Shown here one piece after another: positions 25,010 through 33,369 of a DNA stretch of 64,000 bases. Position numbers and translations under genes: made by a program. Position 1 is the stretch's first letter, and each line of letters starts with the position of its first letter. Source of the stretch: Thermus sediminis. Its GTDB lineage: Bacteria > Deinococcota > Deinococci > Deinococcales > Thermaceae. The stretch covers positions 124,001 through 188,000 of the forward strand of contig NZ_QURO01000004.1 in assembly GCF_003426945.1 (NCBI RefSeq), read 5' to 3'. Below the pieces are notes generated by a model that was not told where the DNA came from, did not search any database, and saw only the letters and a program-made list of their open reading frames with translations.

Positions 25010-25887
25010 GGAAGGCCCAGGAGGCGCTTGAGGCCTAAGGCGGCCTCCACCCCCTGGGTGCCGTAGTTGTTGTTGAAGGTGACGAAGACCCTCTCCGCCT
25101 GGCCCACCAGGGTGCGGGTAGCCTGGGCCAGGTCCTCTAGCTCCTCCTCGCTGTAGCGCCAGTTGAAGCGCTCGTAGGGTTTGGCGTGGGGGCCCTTCCA
25201 GGTTTCGGCGTTGCGGCCGTGGCAGCGGAGGACGGCCACGGGGTGGGTGGCCTCCAGGACCCGGGGCGGGGCCTCAGGGTGGGGAGGTGCGTCCACGCTC
25301 ACGTGGATGAGGCCCAGCCGGGAAAGCTCCCGCTTCACGAAGCCCCAGGCCACGTACCACCTAGGGTTGCGGAACTCCACCGCCACCCAGTAGCCCTGGG
25401 TCCTTGCCGCCAGGTGTTCCAGGTACTGGAAGGTCCTGGGCCTGGGCTCGGTCCAGGGGGGGAGGCCGAAGTGAAGGTAGCCCAGTTTCCCCGAGGCCTT
25501 TAGGGGTTCCAGGGCGGCGAAGAAGCGCCTCCAGGCCTCCTCCACCACCTCCCTGGGCACCTCCCGCTGGGCCAGGTGGCCCTCGGGCCTGGGGAGGAGG
25601 GCCCGGAGGTCCTTGGGGAGGGCGCCCGCCTCGAGGCCGTGCCCGGTGAAGGCGGAGTAGGCCTTCACGTGGAAGAGGAAGCCTTCCGGGGTCCTCTCCG
25701 CCCACTTGGCCGCCACCTCGGGGCGGGGCAGGGCGTAGAAGGTGCTGTCCACCTCTACGGTGTCAAAGAACTGGGCGTAGTGGCGGAGCCGTTTTTCCGG
25801 GTCCCGCCTAACCTCGGGCGGGTACCATCCCGATTGGAGGAGGGTCTCGTCCGTCCAGCTGGCCGTGCCCACCCGGACTTCCGCCAC
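25006..25887 (-). CDS. DUF72 (YecE-like) family protein
   Basis: This 293-residue TIM-barrel-like DUF72 protein starts VRVGTASWTDETLLQSGWYP. It has FFDTVEVDSTFYALP (about 40-54), FLFHVKAYSAFTGHG, and a late FVTFNNNYGTQGVEAA segment, all conserved in the family. No enzymatic role is established. The start is 9 bases after the stop of the usher-like gene on the same strand, so it could be read from that operon. The 3' end overlaps the GGT gene by 4 bases. Confidence 0.9.
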   Translation of the reverse strand: MAEVRVGTASWTDETLLQSGWYPPEVRRDPEKRLRHYAQFFDTVEVDSTFYALPRPEVAAKWAERTPEGFLFHVKAYSAFTGHGLEAGALPKDLRALLPRPEGHLAQREVPREVVEEAWRRFFAALEPLKASGKLGYLHFGLPPWTEPRPRTFQYLEHLAARTQGYWVAVEFRNPRWYVAWGFVKRELSRLGLIHVSVDAPPHPEAPPRVLEATHPVAVLRCHGRNAETWKGPHAKPYERFNWRYSEEELEDLAQATRTLVGQAERVFVTFNNNYGTQGVEAALGLKRLLGLP

Positions 25888-25896
25888 GCCCCCAGT

Positions 25897-28314
25897 TTAG
25901 AGCCCGATGAGGAGGCGGAAGGCCCTCCTCACCTCCCTTTCCCCCTGCCAGGCCCGCACCTCCAGCCCCAAGGCCCTCAGGTTTCCCAAGGGCGTGGCCC
26001 TAGCGGCCACTTCCTCGGTCACGGGGAGCTTCCCCACAAAGGTCCAAGGAGGCCCCTCGCCTGAGGGGCTCAGGGGGAGAAGCCTTTCCCCTTCCAGGTA
26101 GACCCCCGCCCCCTCAGCGGGGAAGCGGGCGAAGAGGCGCACCTCCACCTCGCCCCCCACGGGGGCCCTTGGGGGCGAAACCTCCACCCTGAGGAGGGGC
26201 CTGGTGGGGTCCAGGGGGACGAGGCGCCTCGCCTCCTTGCCATCGGCCCTCACCAGGAGGGCCAGGGAACCCTGGGCCTCCCAGGGCACCTGGAACAGGA
26301 GGCGGACCCCCTCCTCTCCCTTCTCCCGCCTCAGGAGGGGAAGGCCTTGGAGCTCCGCCTCGGCCACGTCCCGCACCAGGACCTCCCCCACCTCCCCCGG
26401 GGCCAGGCCCGGGGGCCAGTCCACCCGGAGGGGCCTCGCCTCCAAAAGCCTCTCCTCGGGGATGGGGGCGAAGGTGAGGGTGAGCTTCTCCTCGGCCAGG
26501 GGGGGGAGCTCCAGGGAAACCCCCTCCGCCCGGTACCCCTTCGGGGCCACGGGCTCCACCCGGTAGGTTCCGGGGGGGACCACCGCCCGGTTCCCGCAGG
26601 CTAGGAAGAGGCCCACAGGGCCCAGGAGGTAGGCCCCTCGCCCCGGCCCCTCGCAGAGGAGGCGCGCCGCCCCCGCCGGGGTGAGCGCTACCCGGTAGGG
26701 GCCTTCGCCGGGGCGGACCCGCACCTCTCCCGGCAGGGCCAGGAGGCCGGGCGGGGGGTCTATCCGCAGGACCTCCCCCTCCCGAGCCACGTGGAGGCGG
26801 AAGCGCCCCTCCCCGTCCGTGGTCCCCCAGCCCTCCTTCCCCACCACCCGGGCCCCCGCCACGGGCCTCCCCAGGACCTCCACCCACCCCTCCACGGGAG
26901 CGGTTTCGTACCCTCCCAGGGCCAGGGTAACGGGTTCGGGCACGGGGAGGCGGAAGGCGTAGCTCCCGGCCAGGGCCAGGCGAAGGGCCCCGTCGTACCG
27001 CCCCTCCAGCCTCAGAGCGTAGGGGGCTTCCCGCCACTCCAGGAGGGCGGAAAGTCTCCCCGGGCCCAGGGAGAGCGCCCCCTGGAAGGGGCCTTCCCGG
27101 TACCCGAGGCCCAGGGCGAGGGAGGCCTGGGGCAGGAGGGCCCCCCTCAGGGAGAGGAGGAAGGGGGAGAGGGGGTAGCCCAGGGCGAGGCCCAGCCCGG
27201 GCCCGCCCCAGTACCTCCCCTCGAGGGCGTAGGTGAGGCCGTGGAGGGCGCCCGTGTGCCCCAGGCGGAGGGAGGGGCCCTGTGGGCCGTACCCCACCTC
27301 CCCCCGCCACCCTCCCCAGGCGAAGCCCCCGTAGAGCCCCCCCTCGTACCGGGCGTGGAGGTAGGGGTCCCCGTAGCGCTCCAGGCGGAGGGAGAGGCCC
27401 TCTGGGCGGTTCCAGGGAAGGGTGAGCCCGAGGGCGAGGGTCCCGTCCCCGTACCCCAGGGCGAGGGCCTCGGGCGAGAGGCGGAGGCGGTAGACCTCCC
27501 GGGGGGCGTAGGTCCACTCCAGGGCCCAGGGGTAGGCCAGGGAGAGGGCGTGGGGCCCCTCCCTGTAGCCCACCTCCCCCTCGAGGCCCGGGAGGAGGCT
27601 TAGCCTCCCCCTCCAGGGCCCCGTCCTCAGGGCGAGGCGCAGGGCGTCCGTCCCCCCCAGGAAGGCCACCCCCACCTCCCGGGAAAGGGGGCCCTCCAGG
27701 GAGAGGCGGAGGCCGGGGGCGCCCTCCCCGTAGGTTCCCTCCACCCGCCCCTGGAGGGTGTAGGGGAGGGGTCCCCCCCCTTGGGGAAGGACCCGGACCC
27801 GGTAGAGGGCCCTCCCCTTCCCGTGGGAGAGGGCGAGCCTCAGGAGGCCGTAGCCGGAGAGGGGAAGCTCCACCTCCCGCTCCTCCCCCGGGGCCAGGGT
27901 GAGGCCCGTGGGGCTCACCCCCACCTCGCTCCCCTCGGCCTGGGCCAGGTGGACCCTCTCGGGGACGTTCCCCCGGTTCCTGAGGAGGAGGCGGAGGCTT
28001 CCCCCGTGGACCTCCCGGGGGAGGCGGACCTCGAGGTCCCCCACGGCCTCCACCTCCACCCCCTGGCAGACCTCCTTCCCCCCCTTGGGCCGGAGGCACA
28101 CCCGGTAGGTCCCGGGCGAGGCTTCCCTTGGGACCTCCACCACCACGAGGAGGGGTCCCTCCCCCGAGGGGCCCGGTGGGAGGAGGAGGGGAAGCTCGGA
28201 GGCCACCTCCACCTCCCCGGGGGGAAGCCCCACGAAGGGGAGGACCACCACCTCCCCTGGCCTGGCTGCCAGGGCGAGGGGGAGGAAGGCCACCCCAAGG
28301 AAGGCGGGGCGCAT
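25897..28314 (-). CDS. Usher-like outer-membrane protein with a putative beta-barrel
   Basis: This 805-residue secreted protein has a signal of about 16 residues (MRPAFLGVAFLPLALA). Residues about 20-190 are beta-sandwich-like, including a NEW3-like stretch (RNRGNVPERVHLAQAEG). Residues about 190-465 alternate aromatic/hydrophobic and polar residues in short strands (GRLSLLPGLEGEVGYREG, ALSLAYPWALEWTYAPRE), as in outer-membrane barrels. Residues about 470-590 look like a carboxypeptidase-regulatory/SpaA-like domain (GRPVAGARVVGKEGWGTTDG). The rest is beta-rich. Size, export and genetic context fit a fimbrial usher, but the domain order differs from FimD/PapC. The usher role is inference. It starts 4 bases after the minor subunit gene. 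Confidence 0.6.
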   Translation of the reverse strand: MRPAFLGVAFLPLALAARPGEVVVLPFVGLPPGEVEVASELPLLLPPGPSGEGPLLVVVEVPREASPGTYRVCLRPKGGKEVCQGVEVEAVGDLEVRLPREVHGGSLRLLLRNRGNVPERVHLAQAEGSEVGVSPTGLTLAPGEEREVELPLSGYGLLRLALSHGKGRALYRVRVLPQGGGPLPYTLQGRVEGTYGEGAPGLRLSLEGPLSREVGVAFLGGTDALRLALRTGPWRGRLSLLPGLEGEVGYREGPHALSLAYPWALEWTYAPREVYRLRLSPEALALGYGDGTLALGLTLPWNRPEGLSLRLERYGDPYLHARYEGGLYGGFAWGGWRGEVGYGPQGPSLRLGHTGALHGLTYALEGRYWGGPGLGLALGYPLSPFLLSLRGALLPQASLALGLGYREGPFQGALSLGPGRLSALLEWREAPYALRLEGRYDGALRLALAGSYAFRLPVPEPVTLALGGYETAPVEGWVEVLGRPVAGARVVGKEGWGTTDGEGRFRLHVAREGEVLRIDPPPGLLALPGEVRVRPGEGPYRVALTPAGAARLLCEGPGRGAYLLGPVGLFLACGNRAVVPPGTYRVEPVAPKGYRAEGVSLELPPLAEEKLTLTFAPIPEERLLEARPLRVDWPPGLAPGEVGEVLVRDVAEAELQGLPLLRREKGEEGVRLLFQVPWEAQGSLALLVRADGKEARRLVPLDPTRPLLRVEVSPPRAPVGGEVEVRLFARFPAEGAGVYLEGERLLPLSPSGEGPPWTFVGKLPVTEEVAARATPLGNLRALGLEVRAWQGEREVRRAFRLLIGL

Positions 28315-28318
28315 AGGG

Positions 28319-28903
28319 CTAGTTCCTCTCCAGCTCGTAGGTCAGGGTGAGGGTTCCCCCTGCGGGAAGGGCGGGGAAGGTGTCCCCGGGCCAGAGCTCC
28401 AGCCAGTAGTAGAGGTGGAGCGTGGCCGTGGCGTTCCGGTCCACGCTGGCCAGCCCCCGCCCGTCCGGCACCGCGTCCAGGAGGGTCGGGGAGGTCACGT
28501 GACTGGTGGCCCTTCCCGAGGCCACCTGGACGAGCACGTAGAGCCTTGCCCTCCAGTCCACGGGTAGCGAGCCGGACACCCCCGTCACCCGGAGGCACCA
28601 GTCGTCCCTCGCCCCGCAGACCCCGCCCCGCCTCCCCCTTCGGTTGGGCGTGGTGACGGTGCAGGCCAGCCGATGCCCGCTTCCCCCCACCGCCTCGGTG
28701 GGCAGGAAGCGCATGGGGCCGTTCCCTCCCAGGAGCAGGAGGTAGGAGGCCAGGTTGGCCACGTAGTAGGGCTGGCCCCCCACGGTGAGGGTAAGGGGAG
28801 GCCCCGGGGCGGAGAAGTCGTAGCGGAGGTCCACCGCATCGCAGTTCACGGTCTGCCCCCAGGCCAAGGGGAGGAAAAGGAAAAGGGCTAGGGCACGGCC
28901 CAT
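28319..28903 (-). CDS. Secreted minor fibre subunit-like protein
   Basis: This 194-residue protein has a signal peptide (MGRALALFLFLPLAWG, cut before QTVNC) and several cysteines (NCDAV, LACTV, GVCGARDDWCLRV) that may form disulfides. It is a paralogue of the 204-residue subunit at 29700. Both share an early LDA/CDA-x5-FDFS-like segment, a VGG/VNG turn, and a C-terminal L-Y-Y-x7-D-x-x-P pattern followed by an edge strand. The likely role is an adapter, tip or terminator subunit. ATG 28903 overlaps the chaperone gene by 16 bases. Confidence 0.6.
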   Translation of the reverse strand: MGRALALFLFLPLAWGQTVNCDAVDLRYDFSAPGPPLTLTVGGQPYYVANLASYLLLLGGNGPMRFLPTEAVGGSGHRLACTVTTPNRRGRRGGVCGARDDWCLRVTGVSGSLPVDWRARLYVLVQVASGRATSHVTSPTLLDAVPDGRGLASVDRNATATLHLYYWLELWPGDTFPALPAGGTLTLTYELERN

Positions 28904-29627
28904 AGGCCCTCCGCCGCATAGCGCCCGTAGGCACTCTCCAAGATCAGGACCACCCGGTACCGGCCCGGGGGAAGGGGCTCTTCCGGTTCCAGGGAGAGCT
29001 CCCGGTATCCCCCGGGGAAGACGGGGAGCTCGGCCAGGGGGAGGCGGGCCACCTCCCTCCCCTCCCCGTCAAAGACCCGGGCCTCCCCCGTGAGGCGCTC
29101 TAGGACGTTCCCCGGGTTCTCCAGGAGGAGGGGGAGGGCCTTTCCCTCTCCCCCCACCCGGGCCCGGAGGGCGGGGCGCTCCGTTCCCCTTAGGGTGAGG
29201 TAGACGGTGAGGCCCAGGGAAGGGCTGGCGCTCAGCCGAAGGCCTCCTAAGGTGGTGGGCCTAGGCCCCGCAGTAAAGACCACCAGGCAGGCCAGGGTGC
29301 CCTCGGCCCCCGGCGGGGCCTTCAGGCTGAGGCGCACCTCGGCGGTCCCCCTGGGGGGCAGGGTGAAGGCGGTGGGGACCACGGTGAGGTGGGGGCAGAG
29401 GTTCCGCTCAGGGCTTTCCACCACGTCCCCCCTGGGGGTGAGGGTGAAGGACCTTAGGCTCACGCTCAGGGGCTCCTCCCGGTCCAGGCCGTTCGTCACC
29501 CGGACCACCTGGGTCGTTTCCCCTCCGGGGGGCAGGCTGAGCTCCAGCCGAGGGGGGAGAGGGCGAGGTCCGCCTGGGCCAGGGCCAGGGCCAGAAGGGG
29601 ACCTACGAGGGCGAAGGGGCGCTTCAT
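28888..29627 (-). pseudogene. PapD-like periplasmic chaperone, frameshifted near the signal peptide
   Basis: From ATG 29627, after a GGGAGG site, the reading frame gives a signal peptide (MKRPFALVGPLLALALAQA) and then ADLALSP. It shifts at a run of six C (29557-29552 on the minus strand). One added base continues as PPRLELSLPPGGETTQVVRV into the long frame ending at 28888, giving 246 residues. Domain 1 resembles a PapD-type Ig fold (VTNG, LPPRGTAEVRLSL). Domain 2 is a second Ig-like fold (NPGNVLERLTGEARVFDG). The role would be to guide secreted subunits across the periplasm. The frameshift may be a sequencing error, because the rest of the frame is intact. Confidence 0.65.
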
Positions 29628-29651
29628 GGTTCCTCCCTTTTCAAGGGTAGG

Positions 29652-29681
29652 GGCCGCTTCCAACTCTTTTTGGAAGCGGCC
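29652..29681 (-). promoter_or_regulatory. Strong mRNA hairpin between subunit and chaperone genes
   Basis: On the minus strand, GGCCGCTTCCAA (29681-29670), a 6-base loop AAAGAG, then TTGGAAGCGGCC (29663-29652) make a perfect 12-bp stem, 18 bases after the major subunit stop. No T-run follows, so it is not a classic terminator. It may protect the 3' end of a processed subunit mRNA or cause partial termination, raising subunit over chaperone and usher. Confidence 0.75.
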
Positions 29682-29699
29682 TTAGGGGATCCCGGCGAT

Positions 29700-30314
29700 C
29701 TAGGGCGAGGTGAGGAGAAGGTTGATGGTGATCCTCTCGTTGATGTCGCTAAGTGGGATGTCGTCGCTGATGTCCATGGTGAAGAGGTAGTAGAGCCTGT
29801 AGACGCTCCTGCCCTGGCCGCCAGAGTTGGCGTTGATGAGGGTTATACCGCTGGAGAGGGCGGTGGGCACCCCGGTCCACGAGCCCCCCTTGCCGCTCAC
29901 CTTCTCGGCGAAGACCAGGACCCGGCTGTTCCCCAGGGTGAGGTTGCCCGTAATGGAGTCGATCTTCACCGTCCATTGGGCCCGGTTGGAGCGGATGGTG
30001 AGGGTGCCGTAGTCGGCCCCGCCCGTGCCCTCCACCAAGGTGGGGGCGAAGATTTGGGTGCCGGTTCCAGCGTCCAGGAAGGCGTCGTAGGCGGCCTGGG
30101 AAGCCTTGGTGTGGCTAGTGCCATTCACCGTCACCGTTTCGCTTCCCGTGAGGCCGGTGTCGCTGAAGTCAAACTTGTAGTTCCTGGCATCCAGGCTGAG
30201 CTGGAGAACGGAAGGGATGATCACGGTGACGGTGTGGTCGTCCGTGGTCTGCGTGGTCTGCGCCAGGCTCAGACCTGCCAAAAGGACTGTGAGGCCAACT
30301 AGCTTCCTCTTCAT
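29700..30314 (-). CDS. Secreted major fibre subunit-like protein
   Basis: This 204-residue protein has a Sec signal (MKRKLVGLTVLLAGLSLA, cut before QTTQTT). The mature part is beta-rich and Ser/Thr/Asn-rich: an N-terminal strand (DHTVTVIIPSVLQLSLD) resembling a donor strand, then NYKFDFSDTG, and a C-terminal YRLYYLFTMDIS plus edge strand. I chose ATG 30314, which has a strong GGAGGTG site 7-8 bases upstream, over an in-frame extension to 30440. It is the first gene of the chaperone-usher-like operon and is followed by the hairpin. I do not recognise the family; pilin-like is inferred from layout and neighbours. Confidence 0.65.
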   Translation of the reverse strand: MKRKLVGLTVLLAGLSLAQTTQTTDDHTVTVIIPSVLQLSLDARNYKFDFSDTGLTGSETVTVNGTSHTKASQAAYDAFLDAGTGTQIFAPTLVEGTGGADYGTLTIRSNRAQWTVKIDSITGNLTLGNSRVLVFAEKVSGKGGSWTGVPTALSSGITLINANSGGQGRSVYRLYYLFTMDISDDIPLSDINERITINLLLTSP

Positions 30315-30440
30315 ATCTGCACCTCCTGAGGGGCCGGCTTGCCACTCGGCCTGTGGCGCCCATCTTGGGCCCGAGGGTTCCTCGCCTCCCCAAGTGCCCA
30401 TACTTCCCGGGTCCTGTGAAAGCTGTGTGAAAAGCCCCAA
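30315..30440 (-). promoter_or_regulatory. Leader and putative control region of the fibre operon
   Basis: The plus strand carries two direct copies of TGTGAAA(A)GC at 30415-30423 and 30426-30435, 11 bp apart. These resemble tandem half-sites for a CRP-family activator. A possible -10 (TATGGG on the minus strand, 30402-30397) would leave a leader of about 75 bases that can form GC-rich hairpins. No -35 box is convincing. Confidence 0.3.
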
Positions 30441-30805
30441 GGAGCGTTGGTCCCCAAGGGGGGCGTTTGCTGCGGAAGGCCTGGACCCTCTGAACGCAGG
30501 CCCTTTGGGGCTAGCCTGGCCCAGGCCCTGCCTCAGGGCGAGCGGCGGGCTTCTGAGGAGGGCTTCCTCGGGGCCGCGGGAGGGCCTTACCGCCTGGGCC
30601 CATGGCCGATGCCTTACTCTAGGCCTTCGGCCGCTTCAGGGGGGGCCTGGGCGCCCGGGAAAGGGCCCACTCTATGGACCGACCTCCTGCTGGACTTCTG
30701 GGAGAAACGGCTTGCTGGTTCTCCTCCACACCTGGGCCTTGCGTTTCGGGGAGGGCTAGAGAGGCTTGGGCCCTCCTGTAGCCTTGCTCCCGGCCAAAAG
30801 GTTTC
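30441..30805. other. Intergenic region without a recognisable gene
   Basis: About 365 bases between the fibre operon and fni. Open frames exist on both strands but have no start signal, coding pattern or family resemblance. I see no RNA motif or repeat here. It could hold the upstream control region of the fibre operon or decayed DNA. Confidence 0.5.

Positions 30806-33369
<2,564 letters not shown>

Follow-up and report, generated by a model that had tools for sequence, protein, structure and literature searches.

A four-gene operon of Thermus sediminis with features of a divergent chaperone-usher-type system

Organization of the four-gene block

The window analyzed here, a stretch of 64,000 nucleotides of Thermus sediminis (contig NZ_QURO01000004.1, positions 124,001 to 188,000), contains a block of four consecutive genes on the minus strand, from 30314 to 25897, which code for products of 204, approximately 245 (a chaperone), 194 and 805 residues. 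The genes occur in the order major subunit, chaperone, minor subunit and large barrel-like protein, and a signal peptide is evident at the start of each of the four products. A previous reading made without database searches (the sequence-only reading) had described a surface-fibre operon with these genes, this order and these signal peptides, all of which were confirmed at 25897-30314. The analyses described below make it likely, with a probability of roughly 0.7, that the products of the operon form a divergent system of the chaperone-usher type and build a thin surface fibre.

The features of the block, with immunoglobulin abbreviated as Ig, are as follows:

29700..30314, minus strand: major subunit, 204 residues; signal peptide, short N-terminal segment TTQTTDDHTVTVIIPSVLQL and Ig-like core
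28888..29627, minus strand: two-Ig periplasmic chaperone, about 245 residues in relatives; frameshifted here at about 29550-29557; homology to EcpB-type chaperones
28319..28903, minus strand: minor subunit, 194 residues; paralogue of the major subunit without its N-terminal segment; putative tip subunit
25897..28314, minus strand: predicted usher-like outer-membrane protein, 805 residues; two Ig domains, barrel-like region and beta-sandwich tail
Large protein, residues ~20-180: two Ig domains related to the chaperone
Large protein, residues ~185-466: beta-hairpin-rich, barrel-like region
Large protein, residues ~470-805: CarboxypepD_reg/transthyretin-like and Ig-like C-terminal domains

The four genes are probably co-transcribed as one unit, because the chaperone gene overlaps the minor subunit gene by 16 bp and the minor subunit gene is separated from the large-protein gene by 4 bp. 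The ribosome-binding site of the major subunit gene, AGGAGGT, is located at 30327-30321. A sigma-70 scan gave no promoter match at the operon, a result that is uninformative at this G+C content. Scanned against Pfam and NCBIfam, the four window proteins yielded no match above cut-off, and no description of the four-gene operon was found in the literature searched, which excluded most subscription papers.

The predicted chaperone gene is present and codes for a signal peptide, but the sequence as read interrupts it. A good ribosome-binding site precedes the ATG at 29627, from which the signal peptide is read; what follows of the gene is shifted out of this frame. When its DNA was aligned with that of four relatives, one base proved to be missing in a run of C at approximately 29550-29557; the reading frame was open in all ten other chaperone genes examined. 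The frameshift is either a sequencing error in the C-run or a real lesion. This was the only such operon found in the genome; a real lesion would silence it, and the operon may then be inactive in this strain.

The chaperone and the two subunits

A profile of 18 divergent members of the chaperone family was compared by hhalign with eight EcpB-type chaperones. The alignment extended over 170 columns across both domains (probability 93.6, E 2e-7; E 2.6e-6 without the signal peptides), and reversed or shuffled control targets gave E values of 0.35 or more. The E value was 6.6e-4 for six classical K-12 chaperones and 1.2e-6 for a comparison between the alternative and the classical chaperone sets. 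By profile comparison, the chaperone is homologous to the EcpB-type chaperones of the alternative (alpha) chaperone-usher class and, judging from these E values, is about as distant from the alternative type as the alternative type is from the classical one. The sequence-only reading was therefore right to recognize a chaperone-usher chaperone, but the nearest type is alternative and not classical.

None of the curated families was matched by the chaperone, and neither PapD_N nor PapD_C gave a match. Single-sequence comparisons with FimC and FimD were also negative, so the classical class was compared through full alignments. An apparent similarity between subunits and chaperone (E 2e-4) was rejected as a signal-peptide artefact, the E value being 0.19 once the signal peptide was removed.

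The paralogy of the two secreted subunits, already suspected, was established by profile-profile comparison (E 7e-21 without signal peptides). The AlphaFold2 model of the major subunit (predicted local distance difference test, pLDDT, 84.5) is a beta-sandwich with an unordered mature N-terminus. Foldseek placed CfaB on top (E 8e-3). The VIA matches of the model were mostly pilins, from all three chaperone-usher classes, together with other fibre subunits: they included the CfaE pilin domain (Z 6.2, root-mean-square deviation (rmsd) 3.1, 114 residues aligned), FimG, CfaB, CsuA/B, CooA, FimA and PapA. The top VIA score was that of the TLP-1a / TLP-1b fibres (PDB 9ikj and 9ikk; Z 7.2, rmsd 3.6-3.9, 141 aligned), which show no sequence match to the major subunit.

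In the N-terminal segment of the major subunit, TTQTTDDHTVTVIIPSVLQL, hydrophobic residues alternate. Alignment showed that this segment is absent from the minor subunit, a protein with four conserved Cys residues. Known pilins offer an analogy: the presence of the segment in the major subunit and its absence from the minor one suggest that the former is the strand donor and the latter the cap at the tip. Major subunits of divergent operons, judged by eye, carry a like segment, and in some of these operons a similar segment occurs in the minor subunit too. A regular expression for the segment was made post hoc and fits only some members; it was used for description only. One two-domain minor subunit (L098:5027-5983) resembles two-domain tip adhesins in that its second domain opens with the segment motif, here ISTAITVTIPAYLSLLL.

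The two-Ig architecture of the chaperone is shared with the WxL interacting proteins (WxLIPs; DUF916-DUF3324), which gave its best two-domain PDB profile match (EfmWxLIP1, E 5.5e-4). The cluster might accordingly export or anchor surface proteins that do not polymerize, the two-Ig protein being a subunit partner as in WxL/WxLIP and the barrel anchoring the complex. Besides the EfmWxLIP1 match, sub-threshold scores to PF06030 (best E 0.0034, in 4 of the 18 members; 15.9 bits against a cut-off of 27.3) and the Ig and transthyretin-like tails, which are typical of adhesive surface proteins, agree with this possibility. However, the EcpB-type homology covers both domains of the chaperone, the major subunit has a pilin-like fold and an N-terminal segment, and no WxL domain was found in the subunits. 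WxLIPs differ also in that their clusters belong to Gram-positives and include neither pilin-like subunits nor an outer-membrane barrel, and strand donation is not mentioned in the WxL paper (PMC10599100). We consider a non-polymerizing system unlikely.

The large protein and the known usher classes

With signal peptides removed, the first ~180 residues of the large protein matched the family's own chaperones at E 5.4e-10, against 0.12 for the reversed control; this relation may be partly generic between Ig families. Residues ~185-466 consist entirely of beta-hairpins, are rich in Tyr and Trp and contain no Lys; approximately 21-24 beta-strands were modelled there, at pLDDT 30-75. Residues 220-404 of the model gave a partial barrel match to VDAC (Z 9.5, rmsd 3.7, 180 aligned), and the profile of the barrel-like region weakly matched OmpG (E 0.15). 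The models make a compact barrel plausible. The outer-membrane barrel predicted before is thus plausible; the 20 or more strands named with it are not established, the model being of low confidence there. The barrel model is weak because the sequence input to the two structure predictions was restricted to six and eleven sequences.

Foldseek with the whole 805-residue model returned mostly unrelated multi-Ig chains, VIA being more useful, and when the large protein alone was searched by sequence against the PDB, only designed Ig proteins were returned. No usher was present among the listed fold matches of the large protein, which we do not count as evidence against an usher.

The closest parallels were found with the alternative (alpha) pili ECP (EcpABCD) and CFA/I-CS1 (CfaABCE, CooABCD). 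The chaperones are homologous, the Thermus operon has a pilin-like major subunit with an N-terminal segment and CfaB as its top Foldseek match, and a CooC_C/CarboxypepD_reg-like domain follows the barrel or barrel-like region in both the alpha usher and the large protein. Outside this domain, however, the large protein could not be aligned to EcpC-type ushers; it has no TcfC (E-set) domain, its N-terminal module is related to the chaperone, and the usher gene is the last of the operon. The Pfam cut-offs of the alpha class were not reached by the window proteins (CooC_C, 14 bits against 29; no TcfC and no EcpB_C), whereas EcpB and EcpC, the positive controls, matched the alpha-class domains. 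Alternative systems have been described from beta- and gamma-proteobacteria only (PMC4654587).

With the classical pili (FimACDH type) the operon shares its logic, namely a chaperone, a large barrel-like protein and paralogous subunits. The chaperone is only weakly related to the classical ones (E 6.6e-4), and the usher-like protein is not homologous by profile and has no PF00577 domain. The 'classical' order and the usher identity assigned by the sequence-only reading were not upheld: the nearest chaperones are of the alternative type, and homology between the large protein and known ushers did not reach significance.

The same reading had taken chaperone-usher systems to be undescribed in Thermus. 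According to PMC4654587, archaic (sigma) systems occur in the phylum Deinococcus-Thermus, to which the pathway is therefore not new; the operon is not recognizably one of these systems. A Csu subunit was among the fold matches of the major subunit (7zl4, Z 5.3; 6fqa, Z 5.2). The signatures of the archaic class, the PF00577 usher and spore-coat-U-type subunits, gave no Pfam match in the window or in the divergent members, and by these Pfam signatures the operon family appears to differ from archaic systems in every one tested. The report of archaic systems in the phylum would fit an ordinary archaic system that has diverged beyond the reach of Pfam. Neither signature was matched in any member, and alpha and classical ushers align with each other over their full length while the large protein aligns with neither, in a comparison made without a sigma-type profile. 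An archaic system is, in our judgement, improbable.

Because usher homology was tested for and not found, the system as a whole should not be filed under the alternative, archaic or classical class.

Conservation, proposed assembly and significance

The large protein was present in 12 of the 27 genomes of the window's genus, and some Thermus genomes have two to three copies of the fibre operon. The sequence-only reading had proposed a search for the same four-gene order elsewhere; the order was kept in nine of the ten Thermus loci read in detail and was also found on Deinococcus plasmids. The tenth Thermus locus (G010) had no major subunit and a shortened large protein. Profile searches for divergent relatives in 111 genomes of Deinococcota, a set that appears poor in Deinococcaceae, detected the chaperone in 44 and the large protein in 35. 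Where loci were fetched on a chaperone match, the large protein was within ~3 kb at 17 of 18, the exception being a contig of 5.5 kb. Chaperone and large protein are almost never found apart; their occurrence without each other had been named as a finding that would refute the fibre operon. Outside the Thermus family, the large gene is in some families adjacent but opposite in orientation.

The Deinococcus plasmid products have ~290, 280, 180 and 1,010-1,090 residues and are annotated as hypothetical or carboxypeptidase-like; a tblastn search against plasmids gave matches in Deinococcus only. D. deserti has a three-gene version of the operon. Public records label the genes of the four-gene set mostly as hypothetical. 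The patterns used in a single scan of a genome collection fit only the close clade.

Four of the loci are broken (L016, L090, L095 and L023): one large-protein gene has an internal TGA, two are frame-split and one is shortened, without a major subunit. The annotation of the D. deserti chaperone relative (L147:5908-6678) as a fimbrial subunit of the FimB/Mfa2 family seems to derive from a Pfam Mfa2 match that barely passes its cut-off (21.7 bits against 21.2). The spot occupied by the operon, between IDI2-like and DUF72 genes (window 25887-30806; L132-L144), is variable in Thermus: depending on the genome, it contains ~1 kb, an unrelated cassette of ~5 kb with open reading frames of ~861, 172 and 314 residues, the fibre operon, or both in one.

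The weak resemblance to OmpG and VDAC and the lack of usher homology could also mean that the four genes are mere neighbours, the large protein being a porin-like or receptor barrel with no connection to the subunits. Against this explanation, to which we give a very small chance, marginally below that of an archaic system, stand the tight overlap and spacing of the genes, their linkage over the phylum and the relation of the large protein's N-terminal module to the chaperone.

The pathway proposed for the chaperone-usher-type system is as follows. The chaperone would bind each subunit in the periplasm by lending it a strand. The large protein would sit in the outer membrane, where its N- and C-terminal periplasmic domains would take in the chaperone-subunit complexes, the subunits going through the pore. 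The N-terminal segment of each major subunit would fill the groove of the preceding one (donor-strand exchange), and the minor subunit, having no such segment, would be at the tip as the start of the fibre. Donor-strand exchange is an inference, and so is the secretion of subunits through the barrel. A fibre operon with subunits, as originally proposed, is favoured by the pilin-like model of the major subunit and the co-occurrence of chaperone and large protein; usher homology did not hold up.

Several observations weigh against this interpretation. Profile comparison found no sequence homology of the subunits to known pilins, and the pilin-like fold scores of the major subunit are middling (Z 5 to 7). 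In the PDB, the chaperone profile matched EfmWxLIP1 better than EcpB; the few chains matched include EcpB (E 0.21) and CfaA (E 2.1), both weakly. The barrel region was modelled at pLDDT ~30-75 with a predicted template-modelling score of 0.30, and no plug domain was recognized in the large protein. The large protein matched alpha ushers with E 0.011 over only 42 columns and classical ushers with E 0.05, whereas alpha and classical ushers, the positive control, align over 735 columns (E 1e-13). None of the 111 genomes of the phylum had a PF00577 match, which says little alone because PF00577 also misses EcpC.

A more specific proposal, which we put forward tentatively and at less than even odds, is that the operons represent a further chaperone-usher-like class, Deinococcota-wide, whose platform is a compact barrel joined to a copy of the chaperone two-Ig module and does not derive from known ushers. 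With a donor strand like that of a chaperone, such a platform may itself receive the subunits.

Nearly all work on chaperone-usher pili concerns proteobacteria. If thermophiles and Deinococcus share a linked set across their phylum, the chaperone-usher pathway would extend to a deep-branching phylum, and heat-stable proteins from a thermophile would become available for structural studies of strand exchange. An outer-membrane platform with a chaperone-like N-terminal module would bear on the origin of ushers, and a testable function can be proposed for gene sets that are now called hypothetical.

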